Source: Tausonia pullulans
Lineage: Eukaryota > Basidiomycota > Tremellomycetes > Cystofilobasidiales > Mrakiaceae
Assembly: GCA_951802195.1 (NCBI GenBank)
Contig: OX637623.1
Coordinates: forward strand, 558,001 to 622,000
Direction: 5' to 3'
Length of the DNA stretch: 64,000 nucleotides
Position 1 is the first letter of the stretch; every line of letters begins with the position of its first letter. This document shows positions 3,718 through 50,900 of the stretch, in pieces. The notes beneath the pieces are model-generated. The model was not told the DNA's origin, did no database searches, and saw only the letters and a program-made list of their open reading frames with translations. Both the position numbers and the translations under genes were made by a program.

Positions 3718-6718
<3,001 letters not shown>

Positions 6719-42384: not shown

Positions 42385-45300
42385 ATGGATACTGGCCCCT
42401 CTCAGCAAGCTGCCCGGACAGGCCCCTTGTGGACGAATACAAAGGCCGGGCCCGCCCGCTCGGATAGCGCCGCTGTTGGAGACGCGAAGAAGCGCTCGTA
42501 AGTCGCTGTGCACTGCTACACTTTCATCCTGCGACAGTGCATGGAACGCATGGGAAACCGCGGAAGAACGGCAGATGCTTTCTCAATGCTACAAGTTTGG
42601 GCAATGGGTGGTGCTGTTGTTAAGCAAGGATGCTTGGGCTCTACGCGTCCTGTCACCTAGGCTCGCGTCTGGCTCGGAGGTTTCGATCTCCCGTTGTGAC
42701 TTTGGGCCAGGCAACAAATGTCTGATCATCTCGACCTTGCCCTCTGCATAGTGCTCCTGCGAGTGCCGAAGCCCCGCTGTCTCGCGCTCCCCCTCAAACC
42801 CAGAGCGCCTCGCTGAGGGAGATGGCCGGTCTCGAGCTGGTCCCCATCCGACGCAGGGACAAGATCATCGAGGGCGACCCACCCAAGAAAAAGCACAAGG
42901 GATGGGCCTTTGTTCCAGTAGAGTGAGACCCTCTCTCGGGTACATTCCGATGTGCCAAGCTGAGACACGCTCTCATACATTATCGATAGCGAGGAAGACC
43001 AGCCCGTCGGCTCACTAGACCAGCCCCCGGCGCTACCGGTAGATGTCAAAGAGCGGCAAGACCGTCAGAAGCGGCGGCTCTTTGGTATCGACGGACGCTT
43101 AGCGGCATCTTACCAACAGGGGAAGAAGATTATGTCGGAGAGCGCGTCGGACGCGAGCCACGAGCGCAGCCGTCCAACGAGCCCGGAGAATCCGTTGCGA
43201 TCTGCGTCGACTGCACGTGAGTCGCTGTCACCTCGCTCTGCTACCACCACGGAAGCTCTCTTCGTCTGACGTAAACATGCCGATACTACAGCCACCTTCA
43301 ATATTATGCACAACCGGCGCCAGTCTCTCCCCGTCGCCCCAAACGGATTATCGAATGGGGCAGTAACATCTTCAGCACCACCCTCGACTTCTGCGGCTGG
43401 TCCCCCACCACCTGCAACCCCGCCTTCGCCTCCAGTTGCAATCTGGGTGCCGATCATGTCGACGCTCAAAAAGTTTAGGCTCGAGGATCGCTCGAGCTGC
43501 CGGTGCATCTATGAGACAAATGGCAGGACTCAGCGACGCTGTCGATGCAACAAGGAGGGCAAGCGGATCAGCGAGGTGCCCATCAGGGTCGAGCGCGTCT
43601 CGCTCCCATCCGAAAAGCCGGTCTTCCGTTTGATTGAGCTCCCTGACGAGATAGTGAGTCATCGTCGTTGAACCAGTCGTGCCCACGTTGTTCCAGTTCT
43701 GACTAGCATCCTTCTGCGTATCCCCCAAGCAGGCGGCGGCGGATCATCCCGTGGCCCAAGATGCTCCCTCGCAGAGACTTCTCTCTTCAGCTGTGACAAA
43801 TGTCGACGCGACTCAATCGACTTCCAGTACGACCGATAGTATGGACATCAACGCCGCTCTGTCTCAAACCCGCGCCCCTGCTTCAGAGAGCAGCCTTCTC
43901 AAACCAGGCCACCCCACACTCGCTACTACCACCCCTCGCCCGTCTAGAGCAGCGCCAGCGCCAATCTCGAAGCTCCCACTACAGCGTGCTTCATCCCAGC
44001 TCGCTGGGAGAGGCGGCGTCGCGCCCCAATCTGAGCGCGAGTTGTCGCTCAGCTCTGCTAGATCAAGCCTGTCCCGGGAACAGTCGGGGGCTGCGTCCTT
44101 GTCGCGCTTTACGAACGAGTTGGTGGGGGCGCCGCTGGCGGACAGGAAGGAGGATGACGACGATCAGCCGCTCGCCTTTCGCTTGCGAGACAAGGGCAAG
44201 AGAAGGATGATCGTCTTGCCTGAACCGGAACCGGGTAGGCAGCGTAGACCGTGCGGAGAGTGCTTCGCCCGGGGTCTCGAGTGCGATGGCGAGCCGTATC
44301 TCGCTTGCTCGGCTTGCGAAACCGCTCAGACACCTTGCTCCCGTGAGTTTTCTTCTCCCTTCGATCCCCCGTCTGGTGCGCTTCGCTCGTTTTGGTGTTG
44401 AAAATTTCACCTCAATCTACCACCACTTTTAGACGTTGTCTGCGCGCGTTGCCTCGACAAGAAGCGTGACTGCAAGAGATCGAGCTACGGTGAGGCGTGC
44501 TCGCCGTGCGGTCAATGGCGGCTGGTCTGTCTACGTGAATTGCTATTCTTCGTGTGGACATTTACCCCCTCGAGCAATCAACTGACCTGAATGCGATGGC
44601 GGTAGTCCGTATCATCCCTGGTTGCGCTGCGTGCGTTGAACATGGGAAGACTTGTGTCCAGCGTCCAGGCGAGCCTTGCTCGCGATGCAAGCAAAGGCGC
44701 AAGCCATGCAGTCGTATGCCCCCTAGATTCCTTCGCTTGCATGGGACTAAGCACTTATCATCCTTACTTCACTCGTGTGATCAGTCGTTGATGGCTCTCT
44801 CGAGGCAGCAGCCGCAAGCAGAGCAAACCTGCTCGACCCTTCAATCACCTCGATTCACGATTCGTCCACATCTCCCGTGGACAACGACCCGGTCTCGACC
44901 TCCGTCGAGGACCCACGCCCCCAGTTCAAGGTGGAGGACGAAGTAATCGCAGAGGCTCAACGCCAGGCCATGCATGTGAGCTAATTTAAGCTATGCTTAG
45001 TCTTTAACTTGAATCGCTGACCTGTCCATTCCTTTCAGCTCGGTATGCTCTGGGGCGCGGGTTTCTCGAGAGTCCGTCCAGATTTCTCTTGGCTGGAGCC
45101 CTTGCTTGGGCAAGTTGTCCAGCTGACTCTGTATCTCTCCAGCCGGAAGACCTACGACGACCGGAAGGCGTTCTTGTCAGCAAGTTCGATCCAGAGGTGA
45201 GCTCTACCAAGGCTCCGAAGGCCTCTCCAGCAGCTGACTGCCCTCCCCTCCCATCGTAGCCTCCTCGCAAGGCTCTCGTGCCCTCCGCCTTCCGACGACA

Positions 45301-47636
45301 ACAGCTCGAGATCGAAGGCCTCCGCAAGGGTGTCCGTCGACAGCGAGACCAGCTCCACCAGAGCGAAGAGAAGCTCCGGGCTCGACTCAAGGAGCTCGGT
45401 CTTCCATCAGTCGAGGAGGAAGGTGCGGCCAAGGAGAAGGACCAGTTGCCTCTGCTTGTCCCGCCCGCGGACGCCAACGCGGGCAAGGTGCGCTCGTTCT
45501 TCCTTTAGCTACATCTTCCAACCCTTTCAAATTGGCTGAATGCTTCAATTCGATTTCTCCAGATAGCTGAGCTCCAGGCGTTCGCCGAAATGCAGAAGAC
45601 GACGATCCGCCGCCTAGAGAGCCGTATTGCCAATATGGATATTCGCGTCCAGCATGCGGCGGAGGGGCCTGCCATCCGTGCGGTTGGTACGGAGATCGCG
45701 GACCTCAAGAAGAAGCTTTTGGAGAAAACCCAAGCGGAATGGCGCACGACAGAGCAACTCGAGTACGAGAGAACAGAGCGGCGGCGGCTCGAGTCAGAGG
45801 CGCAGCAGTGGAATGGGTTACAGGTCAATAGAAGATGGATGTCGGTTTAACGCGCTCCTGCTGACACTCGTCCATTCTTTCGCAGGCTCACCCAGCGGAC
45901 CATGAGACTTTAGTAACCATAACCGCTAAGCAGGAGAAGGCGCTCGTCGACTGGGGGCATAAATTCAATCAGGTAAACGGGCCATTTGGTATGAGCTTCT
46001 CTCGACAGGGACGGGCCTAACGTTCCCCTTGCTGTCCAGACTAATGTTGCCCTAGAGACATGTCAGAAGAAACTCAAGATAGAGCGCGATTCGCGGTCGT
46101 GGCTCGCTCGCGCCATCCTGGAGAAGCAGCGAAACGTGAGTGCCTCGCCTCATCTCAGCACAATTCAGCAACGCTGAGGCGTGATTCCTCCCAGCTCGCC
46201 AATGCCCAGACGACCATCGCTACGCTCAACACTGAAAATTCAAAGCTCAAAGAGTCTCTTCTCAGCAGCATGAAGCCTGGCCTTCAGGCATTGCGAGTGC
46301 GCTTCTCGGGCCGGCTCAACCTTGCTTTTGTGTCCTCGCGTCAGGCCGCTGATCGCATCGTTGTCTTTCACAGAACCTCGAGCTGGCGACGGTGCATCGG
46401 GAACACAATGTCCGTCCGTGGGTGCAGATGTTGCTTGCCGTCTCGGCCTCCTTTGACTCTAGTTCTTTAGCTCGTCGAGGCTCTGCTCGAGGTCCCCAAG
46501 GCCAAGCAGGCCCGCGATGAGGCGAATAAGAAGCTTCAGAAGACCAAGAATGAATACGACGGAGTGAGTCCTTCCCTCATCCCCTCGCATGTTTTGGATT
46601 GAATCTGACCCTGAGTCGGTCAATTCTGGCACATCAAGGCTAGCCAGATCATGAATGAGGACTGCCGGATAATTTCTGCTGAGGCCGAGGACGTGAGTCG
46701 TCATTCGGGCACGACTCCTGCATTATCTGACTCATTTGGCTTCCTCAGCTCGAGAAGCAGCTCGTGCAGCAGAAGGGAAAACTCGTCACGCCGCCTCCTC
46801 AGATTACAAAGAGCAACCCGCCGCCGCAGCCTCCTTCAAATCGCGCCTCGGAGACGAACACCGAGACTGTCGCCAATATTCTGGACATCGTGAGTCGTGC
46901 TTCGTGCTGTTCTCGCTTCGCAGCACTAGTCACCGACTCATATGTCGCCCACCACTGGCAGATCAAGAAGTCCGCCAGCGTCCTCTCGCAACTCTCTGGT
47001 GTCTCGATCACTGCCATCCTGGCGATGCAGCTTCCAGCGTTCCTAGATCTCTGCTCGACCCAGGTACGTCGCTTTGAGCTCCATCCCCCATGCCTATCGC
47101 CTTGCTGAGAGCCTCTCGAACGGTCATTCTCTGCAGCTCCAGGAAGCGGAGCAAGAGATCAAGCAGCTCCGAGAGGAGAAAATCCAGCGATCCGCCGAGA
47201 TTGACACTCTCCGCAAGGCGAAGGAGCAATCCGGGGCTCAGGCGCCAGCCAAATCAGACGCTGTAAAGTCTCTTTCCTTCTTCTCCACTTCCCGCTCGCG
47301 CTTGCTGGCTCATGCGGATGTCCACCGCTGTCTCTCTACAGGTCAATAGTCCTACCACCGAAGTGAGCGCCCGCCTAGGCGTCACGCTTCTCTAAGTATT
47401 ATATTTTTTCCCACTGAGGCTTGTCGACGCTCGTTCTCGAGGTCCACAAAGACACCGTGGGTCTCTGTGCTCAGGAAAAGGCGCTGAACGTCGGGGTGTG
47501 TAACTCCCCCCCCCCCCCCTATAAAGACCTGGCTTGGCTGCCTAGCAAATCCTGACCTAATTTTGCTTGCTTGCTACAGTGGATCGCCTGTGAGAGAGAG
47601 GCCACCCACATCGAGCGCCAGGTCGCGATCATCTAG
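42385..47636 (+). CDS. Protein with three tandem Zn2Cys6-type clusters and long C-terminal coiled coil
   Basis: A many-exon gene. Exons 1-10 are 42385-42497, 42752-42922, 42990-43216, 43292-43653, 43733-44342, 44433-44534, 44606-44713, 44785-44975, 45039-45071 and 45143-45196, all phase-consistent, with about ten further exons to the stop at 47636. The N-terminus (about residues 1-460) is disordered with a basic PPKKKHK patch (possible NLS) and a short CRC...CRC segment. Clusters lie at about residues 464-492 (CGEC...CSAC...C), 498-527 (CARC...CSPC...C) and 535-563 (CAAC...CSRC...C). Each has the spacing CX2CX6CX7-8CX2CX6C of fungal binuclear zinc clusters. The remaining half is charged and helical (RRLESRIANMDIRVQ, LQEAEQEIKQLREEK), a coiled coil for oligomerisation. 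No fungal transcription-factor middle homology region is evident. DNA binding is plausible but unproven. Confidence 0.8.
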
Positions 47637-47969
47637 GGGAGAGACATCAAGTGCCGGCTGGGTGCCAAATGCCGGGCGACGACGCTGTTGCAAGCGTTTG
47701 TGGTCGAGCTTGCCCAGGTCAATCGATGTGTTGAAGCAGTCGATCTGCATCCTGCCAGAGAAGCCGACGGCGTCGATGGCAGCGGTTGAAGCGACGGCGA
47801 CGGGAGGGAGAGCGGTATGAGGGGGAAGGAAGGTGGTGGCACTGGCTCTCTCCCCTTGCATGATCTTTCTCTCATTTCTGTCTCTCTTAAATCTCTCGAG
47901 CGGAACAACCAGTTCATTCAACCAAGTATGTGTGTGTGAAAGAGGGGGGGGGGGGAAACGACAGAGAAA
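47637..47969. other. Convergent 3' intergenic region
   Basis: A 333-bp space between the zinc-cluster gene and the leucyl-tRNA synthetase gene, including a 12-base G run at 47944-47955. Minus-strand open frames here lack support. Confidence 0.4.
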
Positions 47970-50900
47970 TCAAACAGCCTGATAGAAGACCATGCCCGGC
48001 GAAGCAGGCTGAGCGTTCTCAATGTCCTGGACGGACCACCCGGCCTCCTGGTCCTTAGCCTTTCCGGCCTCAAGAGTCGCGAGCGCCTCCTCGACTGTAA
48101 GGATCTCGAGGTCGACGAGGTTGAGCTCCTTCTGCATCTTGGGGACCGCGAGCTTGAGAATCTCAAGCTCGTCGAAGGGGAGCGTCCGGGAAAAGGCGGC
48201 CTCGGCTCCGAAGTCGGTGATGCGTTTCTGTAGTGGTGGCACAGTAACAGGGAGTTCAGTAAGGCGTCTGCTTTAACAAGAGACGTCCAAGAACAACGAC
48301 GAACCTTGAACTGGACGACGTAGGGCATCGCCTTTTTGTTCTTAAGGAGACCGTGGGCGGCGAGAGCCTCGCGGACCTTGACGTCGTCGACGGAGCCCGT
48401 TTCGGCGTTGAAGTTGTCCTTGACGGCCTGGACGATCTGGTTCTGCCACTCCGGGTAGCTCTTGGCAATAAAGAGCCTCAGCTTGAGCGGCAGCTTGCGG
48501 TCCGGCGGAGGCGCGAAAGCCATGTTGTTCTTGCCCCCCGACTTCTTGAACTTGGCAAACGCCTTGTCGAGCCCGATGTGTCGATCCCGGACGTCCTTAA
48601 GGACGGACCGCGTGTACTCAAGCGAAGCTAGGACTGAGGGGTCCGCAGCTCGGACCGGAGGAAGCTGGGCGAGCTGGATCGATGTTGAGTGCTGGAGGAC
48701 CGACGTCCAGATGTGGTCGGCGAAGTGAGGGGCAATTGGGGCGACGAGGAGCGCCGTGAGGGAGAGACAGCGCTCGATGAGCTCCCGGTGGGGCTTGATG
48801 TCTGACGTGGCCTCGGTGTAGGCCTTACGGGCCGAATCAAGCTCGTAGTAACCGTACTGAAGGGCCTCCTTGTACCAGGTCCTAGAGAGCGGGCGGCGTC
48901 AGCAAGAGAGGCAGACAGTCAGGCCGTGGGAAGGGGCAGACTCACTTATCGTACGCCTCACGGGTGCGCTCAGTGATGTCGAACATCTCCTCCGCGAACG
49001 CTTTGTCCCAGAACGAGTCGGCTGCGCCGGTACGGAGGGGAGCCTCGGGATTGGAGAGGACGCCCTGTGGAGGAGACCTAGGGCATCAGCAAAGAGCTAA
49101 AGAGAACCGATGAGGACTCACGTTAGCCCAAATGATTTGGGTGTGGAGACGCTGGATCGCCGAGTTGGCGGTGAGCTCCTCAAAGTTGGCGTCTTCCATG
49201 CCGTCACCCGCATCAGCGAGCGTGAGTCGGGTGGCGTCGGCGCCAAACTTCTCGATCGCGTCGCGGAGGGTAAGTGAGTTGCCCGTCGATTTGGCCATCT
49301 TCTTGCCGTTGAGCATGAGGTGGCCATTGGCACGCATCGAGAGCGGCCAGTGGTGCTCCGGGAAGAGGGCAGCATGGACATAGATGCAGAAGGTGAGATG
49401 GTTCGGGATGAGATCCTTGCCGGACGAGCGCACGTCCATCGGGTAGAAGTAGTTGAACTCGCGTTTGAGGATGTCAAACTTCTCTTGGGCGACGGTCGCG
49501 TCCTTGGGGAAGGGACCCGAGCCAAGGACGTAGTCCCAAACCTCGTCGGTCATGTCCTCGGGGGTAATACCGAGGGGAGCAGTGGTGTGCCCGGTGATAT
49601 CGCCACCTGAAGAAATGGACAGGTCAGTCAAGTGCGCGCGCGGCGACAACCGTGAGCGTGGGAGGAGGCAACGCACCCTGGAGGAGGTGAGCAACCGTGT
49701 AGTACGACATGTAGATGGTCGAGTCCGAGAGAGACTCGACAAGGAACTGCGGATCCCAGGGAATCTTGGAACCGAGACCGTACGAGCGGGAGCAAGCCCA
49801 CTGCTTGAGCCATGCGAGGACACCCTCGAAGCCGTGGCGGGTCTCAGGGAAGTATGTGTTCATGCGGGCGAGAAGACTGCAAGGCAGGACGGGGCGAGCG
49901 AAGAGTCAATGAACTTGAGTGACACGGTGTCGTGAAGGGAGCCTTCTTCCCACTTACGTCTCGGCGGCCTTGCGCCATTCGCTCTCTCCGTAGTCGATGT
50001 ACCACTGATCGACGAGCGCGACAACGCACTCGTCTCCAGAGCGGGACATGACGAGGTTCTCCGGCTCGGCGTACTTGAACGCAAGGCCCTGCTCGACGAG
50101 AAGCTGCTGGACTTTGGGCTTGGCGGCCTGGACGGTTTCGCCCTTGAAGAGGCCGACGAGCATAGTACCGCTGAAGAAGCCCTCCTTGTAGGCGATCTCC
50201 TTGGCCTCGGCGAGCGCCTTGACGTCCTTCTGGGACTGGATCTTGAACTGTTTAACGAGCGAGACCGCAATAAGGTCGCCGTATTTGGGCGTCGAAATGA
50301 GACTGATTGGCTCGTTGGCGACCCACTCGGCCTCAATGCCGTAATATTCCGGCTTCTTGCGGAGGTCGAGGATGGTGGCATAGTCGTCGGGCGAGTCGGA
50401 CGTGCAGCAGGTGACGATACCGGTTCCCTAGGGGAGGAAGGACAAATTTCTCAGCATGACAAAGCCACTTGGCACGCACTCAAGGCCTTTCTCTGCCCAC
50501 CTTTGTAGCGAGGACCCCCTCCATGGGGACGACATAGACCTCCTTGACCTGGCTGAGAGGTGGGGCGACCTTGGTACCGACGAGGTCTGATCCCTTGATC
50601 TCGGCAAGCTTGACGACCTTGCCCTCCTCCTCAAAGATGCCCTGGAAGGCCATGTTGCGCGCCGCACGGTCCGTCATGACGTAGACCTCCTCCGGTGAGA
50701 CCTGGAAGACACCATACGTGATCGAAGGGCCAACGAAGCAGTTGGTCTGACCGTAGCTATGAACGAGCAAGGGTTCAGCGTCGGCGCTTTTGCAGGCAGA
50801 ACATGCACGAGGGCACCTACACAGTCTCAGAACGGAGGGTGGCCGCAACGAGCGAGACTTTCTTGCCTTCGAGCTTGCCATTAAGAACGTCTTGGGCCTT

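Follow-up and report, generated by a model that had tools for sequence, protein, structure and literature searches.

Three tandem Zn2Cys6-like cysteine modules, probably multiplied by exon duplication, in the middle of a protein of Tausonia pullulans

A gene on the forward strand of the analysed DNA (hereafter the window; 64 kb, GC content 58.6%, from a genome of 23.86 Mb in 21 contigs) appears to encode a protein in which three complete cysteine modules of the form CX2CX6CX7-8CX2CX6C follow one another in tandem. Module 1 (44252..44338, CX2CX6CX7CX2CX6C) lies close to the 3' end of exon 5 (43733-44342), module 2 (44441-44530, CX2CX6CX8CX2CX6C) in exon 6 (44433..44534) and module 3 (44623-44709, CX2CX6CX7CX2CX6C) in exon 7 (44606..44713), all on the + strand, with the first Cys codons at 44252, 44441 and 44623 and middle loops of 7, 8 and 7 residues. 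Residues 465-563 thus contain 18 cysteines with the successive spacers 2-6-7-2-6-4-2-6-8-2-6-7-2-6-7-2-6. The three-module motif is real and not a product of chance: the complete six-Cys motif was present in none of 60 windows simulated with a first-order Markov model, which confirms the tandem modules proposed in an earlier note on this DNA, and the half motif CX2CX6C occurs 12 times in the window, six of them in the array, against 1.7 expected. The spacing of about 34-37 residues given there needs a slight correction, the first cysteines (residues 465, 498 and 535) being 33 and 37 residues apart. Our preferred interpretation, held tentatively, is that of a single-copy, perhaps lineage-restricted and perhaps nuclear protein whose three Zn2Cys6-like metal-binding modules go back to the tandem duplication of a single exon and act as a multivalent scaffold.

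The array-bearing gene (42385..47362) begins with an ATG at 42385 on the + strand and was modelled by manual splicing into an open frame of 21 exons and 1095 amino acids, with GT-AG borders at all 20 introns and a provisional C-terminal end after 47362. As judged by eye, Pro, Ser and Ala are abundant in the N-terminal half of the protein, where the basic run PPKKKHK at residue 81 may suggest a nuclear protein; the C-terminal half has a charged, helix-like composition. Exon 4 (43292..43653) adds another cysteine motif, CRC-X11-CRC (residues 240-256), which may be an additional metal site; a Pfam search with the 80-residue piece around it found no family at E<=10. The array is followed by a linker and a charged, coiled-coil-like C-terminal region (44785..47362). 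The long coiled coil suggested earlier for this region is plausible from the composition, but the heptad measure does not rise above the shuffled protein: the top window scored 3.77, and the 95% point of the highest score per shuffle, taken over 500 shuffles, was 3.89, the shuffles being scanned every 7 residues and the real protein every 14.

Binuclear clusters are a leading class of fungal DNA-binding domains and usually occur once per protein. Zn2Cys6 transcription factors carry the cluster near the N-terminus together with a fungal-specific transcription-factor domain, and the basic first half of the cluster contacts DNA. All three modules show the spacing of this class (CX2CX6CX5-12CX2CX6-8C), module 2 only if intron 6 is 44535..44605. 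Against the Pfam family Zn_clus (PF00172), with a cut-off of 21 bits, the modules alone gave 16 bits, no match and 19.3 bits, and the whole array 18.2 bits; an ordinary Zn2Cys6 cluster from the same genome, used as a positive control, gave 43.7 bits. A search with residues 1-701 found no Pfam family at E<=10, and no Pfam family reached its cut-off for any single module. The search of the genome for the Zn2Cys6 family gave 37 matches, 27 of them over the cut-off and none inside the array-bearing gene. A profile of the three modules matched, weakly, three entries of the PDB at E<=10, all of the Zn2Cys6 class: LAC9 (0.11), CBF3 subunit B (0.74) and GAL4 (1.1). When an ordinary cluster was used as a control in a phmmer search of the PDB, 21 sequences were returned, with LAC9 first at 1.6e-5 and one ferredoxin among them. 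AlphaFold models of modules 3 and 2, made singly with a three-row alignment, were poor (pLDDT 62 and 70), and Foldseek returned 0 and 11 chance-level matches for them, mostly defensins, with no zinc cluster. The modules are best termed Zn2Cys6-like, as likely distant kin of this class, on whose pairing register the comparisons differ.

Apart from the shared cysteine spacing, the array differs from the Zn2Cys6 family in its three tandem copies, in its mid-protein rather than N-terminal position, in the reversed order of its halves in the two PDB alignments displayed, and in lacking the basic DNA-contacting first half. Profiles of first and second halves were built from the clusters of the same genome, in which the DNA-contact signature is seen, and were right in 28 of 31 leave-one-out assignments, one sequence having been entered twice. 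Each of the six array halves fits the second-half profile better than the first-half one; on the latter they range from -8.9 to 1.5, compared with 13.1 for the first half of GAL4. Partial basic runs are present in halves 3 and 6, the latter being the most like a first half, with 1.5 bits (p 0.012 in comparison with random fills). The suggestion that the clusters read long DNA sites is not supported, given the missed Pfam cut-off, the absent DNA-contact half and the lack of a transcription-factor domain, none being found by Pfam in residues 1-701 or the C-terminal piece of 435 residues. Without the recognition half of GAL4-type clusters, reading of specific DNA sequences is not the most likely role. 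That the protein is a transcription factor whose three classical GAL4-type clusters read long or repeated CGG-type sites is a possible but doubtful alternative, less likely than the scaffold: the cysteine spacing, the weak profile matches to LAC9, GAL4 and CBF3 subunit B, and the basic runs (KKR in one half, KQRRK in another), with the score of half 6, speak for it, whereas the half scores, the sub-threshold Pfam values, the position of the array and the missing transcription-factor domain speak against it.

The reversed alignments bear on a second alternative, in which the unit boundaries are shifted and the array is either a ladder of six CX2CX6C half-knuckles or a circular permutation with halves 2+3 and 4+5 pairing canonically. 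The spacers between the half-units (7, 4, 8, 7 and 7 residues) allow every neighbouring pair to fit the six-Cys motif; the LAC9 and CBF3 subunit B alignments match the first half of the module to the second half of the known cluster and vice versa; halves 4+5 form one stretch covering Zn_clus positions 2-31 at 15.1 bits; and the best Zn_clus stretches of modules 1 and 3 span one half only. On the other hand, the introns delimit the units as halves 1+2, 3+4 and 5+6, the half-order scores are mixed (the reversed order being better for modules 1 and 3 and the canonical one for module 2), halves 2+3 fit neither order, and the scores all lie below the cut-off. We regard a shifted register as rather unlikely. 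A bolder form of the idea, in which a ladder of six half-units grew by exon duplication and neighbours share zinc, would make the array an extended multi-zinc rod instead of three GAL4 domains and the pseudo-symmetric half the true evolutionary unit; this appears quite improbable. The introns favour the register of the earlier note.

In the gene model, the three modules are each followed by an intron: intron 5 at 44343..44432, intron 6 at 44535..44605 (71 nt, with CTGAC 20 nt before a TAG acceptor) and intron 7 at 44714..44784 (71 nt, with the weak donor GTATGC, 1.8 bits), all on the + strand and of phase 1. The GT dinucleotides at 44343, 44535 and 44714 each lie 5 nt past the last base of the sixth-Cys codon. 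On the splicing proposed in the earlier note, exons 6 and 7 are symmetric 1-1 exons of 102 and 108 nt, as claimed there, and the introns are identically placed (offsets 5, 5 and 5); the latter claim is weakened by in-frame rivals at introns 5 and 6. If that splicing is correct, and only then, the chance of two further introns matching the first can be put at about (1/105)^2, or ~1e-4, by our own arithmetic for uniform, independent positions in a unit of ~105 nt. Retention of intron 5 would lead to a stop, and that of intron 6 or 7 to a frameshift.

With a branch-point filter, 38 in-frame paths through the three introns were obtained, among which the proposed path ranks eighth with a summed splice score of 15.1, the best reaching 21.0; the matrix used to score splice sites was built from only 16 introns, all of the manual model of the same gene, and is thus small and not independent. 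In the better-scoring paths, intron 5 starts at donor 44376, intron 6 is replaced by 44525-44574, or intron 7 gives way to a rival, and the path that differs from the proposed one only by intron 44525-44574 scores 20.6. A further alternative is therefore that the splice model errs at intron 6, with or without an error at intron 5, in which case the intron coincidence vanishes; both changes are in frame and occur in top-scoring paths. For intron 5, donor 44376 (7.7 bits) and donor 44343 (7.3 bits) are tied, and 44376 is an equally good alternative that keeps modules 1 and 2, shifts the intron by 33 nt and lengthens the linker between the two modules; donor 44343, however, is a full GTGAGT, the commonest donor form of the gene. 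For intron 6, the rival 44525-44574 scores 8.0 bits against 2.5 bits for 44535..44605. It removes the sixth Cys of module 2, leaving five cysteines, and the exact placement of that sixth Cys would become a coincidence; it also needs a GAG acceptor, a form found in none of the 17 other introns (CAG in 12, TAG in 4, AAG in 1), is 50 nt long where the shortest other intron has 56, and has TTTAC at 10 nt as a poor branch point, compared with CTGAC at 20 nt. Because of the acceptor, shortness and branch point of the rival, and because of the CTGAC and the exact sixth Cys on the other side, intron 44535..44605 is preferred in our judgement from these sequence features, and an error of splicing is considered unlikely. 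The third-position GC of exon 7 (0.56) shows no excess, compared with 0.74 in exon 6 and 0.67 in the gene, which mildly counts against exon 7 as an exon.

The choice of donor at intron 5 also bears on another alternative, in which part of the array would be a ubiquitin-ligase domain of RING-like type with a coiled coil after it. The stretch C-S-H-V-V-C-A-R-C-L (CSHVVCARCL) at the exon 5/6 junction resembles a RING core such as that of zf-RING_5 (PF14634), seven RING-type families gave 10.5-19.6 bits for a piece around this junction, and RNF4 was the sole PDB match of a 111-aa fragment (E 5.4). All these families nevertheless stay below their cut-offs (the best with 19.6 of 27.9 bits), the match depends on one CXHXXCXXC stretch that is present only with donor 44343, and the regular cysteine ladder would be left without explanation. 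A RING-like domain is highly improbable.

On the splicing of the earlier note, exon duplication of the modules is probable, and it would be old. The shared offset and phase of the introns support the tandem exon duplication proposed earlier, and the protein sequence adds weakly to this: compared in the same register against within-module shuffles, the non-Cys residues of modules 1 and 3 (p=0.017) and of modules 2 and 3 (p=0.031) resemble each other, but those of modules 1 and 2 do not (p=0.19). The longest direct repeat of the region (32 nt, 72%) has an offset of 179 nt, equal to the distance between donors 44535 and 44714. Little similarity is kept at the codon level (p 0.054, 0.19 and 0.22), and no homology was found among introns 5-7, whose similarity is no greater than that of shuffles (z -0.06 to -0.32); a control comparison of intron 6 with an intron beyond the array, intron 10, reached z 3.15, above every pair within the array. 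The weak codon tests and the introns no more alike than shuffles imply that the duplication, if real, is old.

Ordinary Zn2Cys6 genes of the same genome share the cysteine class with the array; among 30 of their loci, read unspliced, four carry one contiguous cluster, 26 none and not one carries two. At four of 12 such loci examined (L009, L011, L028 and L031), an acceptor-like AG stands directly before the third Cys codon, and for this reason the Pfam cluster matches are split in two there. This place differs from the intron place of the array, and no intron place common to the array and the ordinary clusters was found at the 12 loci; the AG before the third Cys thus indicates that the array did not simply inherit its intron pattern from such a gene.

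The gene is single-copy at the sensitivity used, since the genome, when searched with the full-length protein, with the array, with the modules singly and with a 74-aa piece of exon 4, returned only the gene itself and no paralogue. In the protein collection, residues 420-600 gave 763 candidates and none at E<=10, and the whole length gave none at E<=1 among the best 7993 candidates by shared words, which were scored. A 199-aa query gave 208 candidates and one match at E<=10, the 221-aa metagenome reading frame P0001. The absence of another species' orthologue from this collection is weak evidence. P0001 spans the greater part of exon 5 and continues into intron 5; over 215 aligned residues it shows nine differences from the window, one of them beyond the donor, and a 5-residue indel. 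Module 1 is unchanged (29/29 residues identical), which, with so few changes overall, is only consistent with constraint on this module.

As far as the sequence goes, the most likely role would be that of a multivalent zinc scaffold for the binding of nucleic acid or of protein. With introns 44343..44432, 44535..44605 and 44714..44784 taken as those used, one exon bounded by phase-1 introns would have been duplicated in tandem to give the three modules, each predicted to bind two zinc ions. The array would offer a multivalent binding surface, for nucleic acid possibly through the basic stretches CLDKKRDCKR and CKQRRKPC, and the charged C-terminal region might present it as an oligomer. If true, three tandem clusters, each on a duplicable exon, would show how this domain multiplies, and the array would show whether clusters without the DNA-contact half act as binding scaffolds. 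Domain databases contain further proteins with two Zn_clus domains, and some basidiomycete proteins carry CX2CX6C pairs of reversed flavour in mid-protein; both would make the array less new.

A regulator of Alternaria brassicicola is described as having two Zn2Cys6 domains and a transmembrane segment (PMC10305253); it and the present protein are alike in having more than one Zn2Cys6 domain, two there and three here, and the multiplicity of the domain within a protein is therefore not new as such. PMC5415576 lists zinc clusters that are combined with DNA-binding domains of other kinds. In the portions of the open-access literature on tandem, double or triple Zn2Cys6 that were covered, no description of three tandem clusters was found, and such wording mostly refers to several separate factors. 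For tandem exon duplication in fungi, as for Zn2Cys6 in Microbotryomycetes, the literature searches gave nothing usable.

Several other features of the gene and its surroundings were observed. Introns 8-20 (44976-47341), thirteen in succession, are all of phase 0 in the manual model, with small exons of 36-261 nt between them, four of which start with CTC, and the C-terminal part of the gene may also have grown by exon duplication. Alternative splicing is possible at intron 8 (44976-45142), where an earlier acceptor at 45038 would open another frame (LGMLWGAGFSRVRPDFSWLEPLLG...). An Rfam search of the whole window found no family reaching its gathering score. Downstream of the array-bearing gene, on the minus strand, lies a leucyl-tRNA synthetase gene (47918-49859, its extent to 49859 being a by-eye reading of the ORF list), with Anticodon_1 and RBD_LARS1 in the piece 47921-48898. 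A protein kinase gene is located at 4535-5983, with Pkinase in two stretches separated by a long low-complexity insert.
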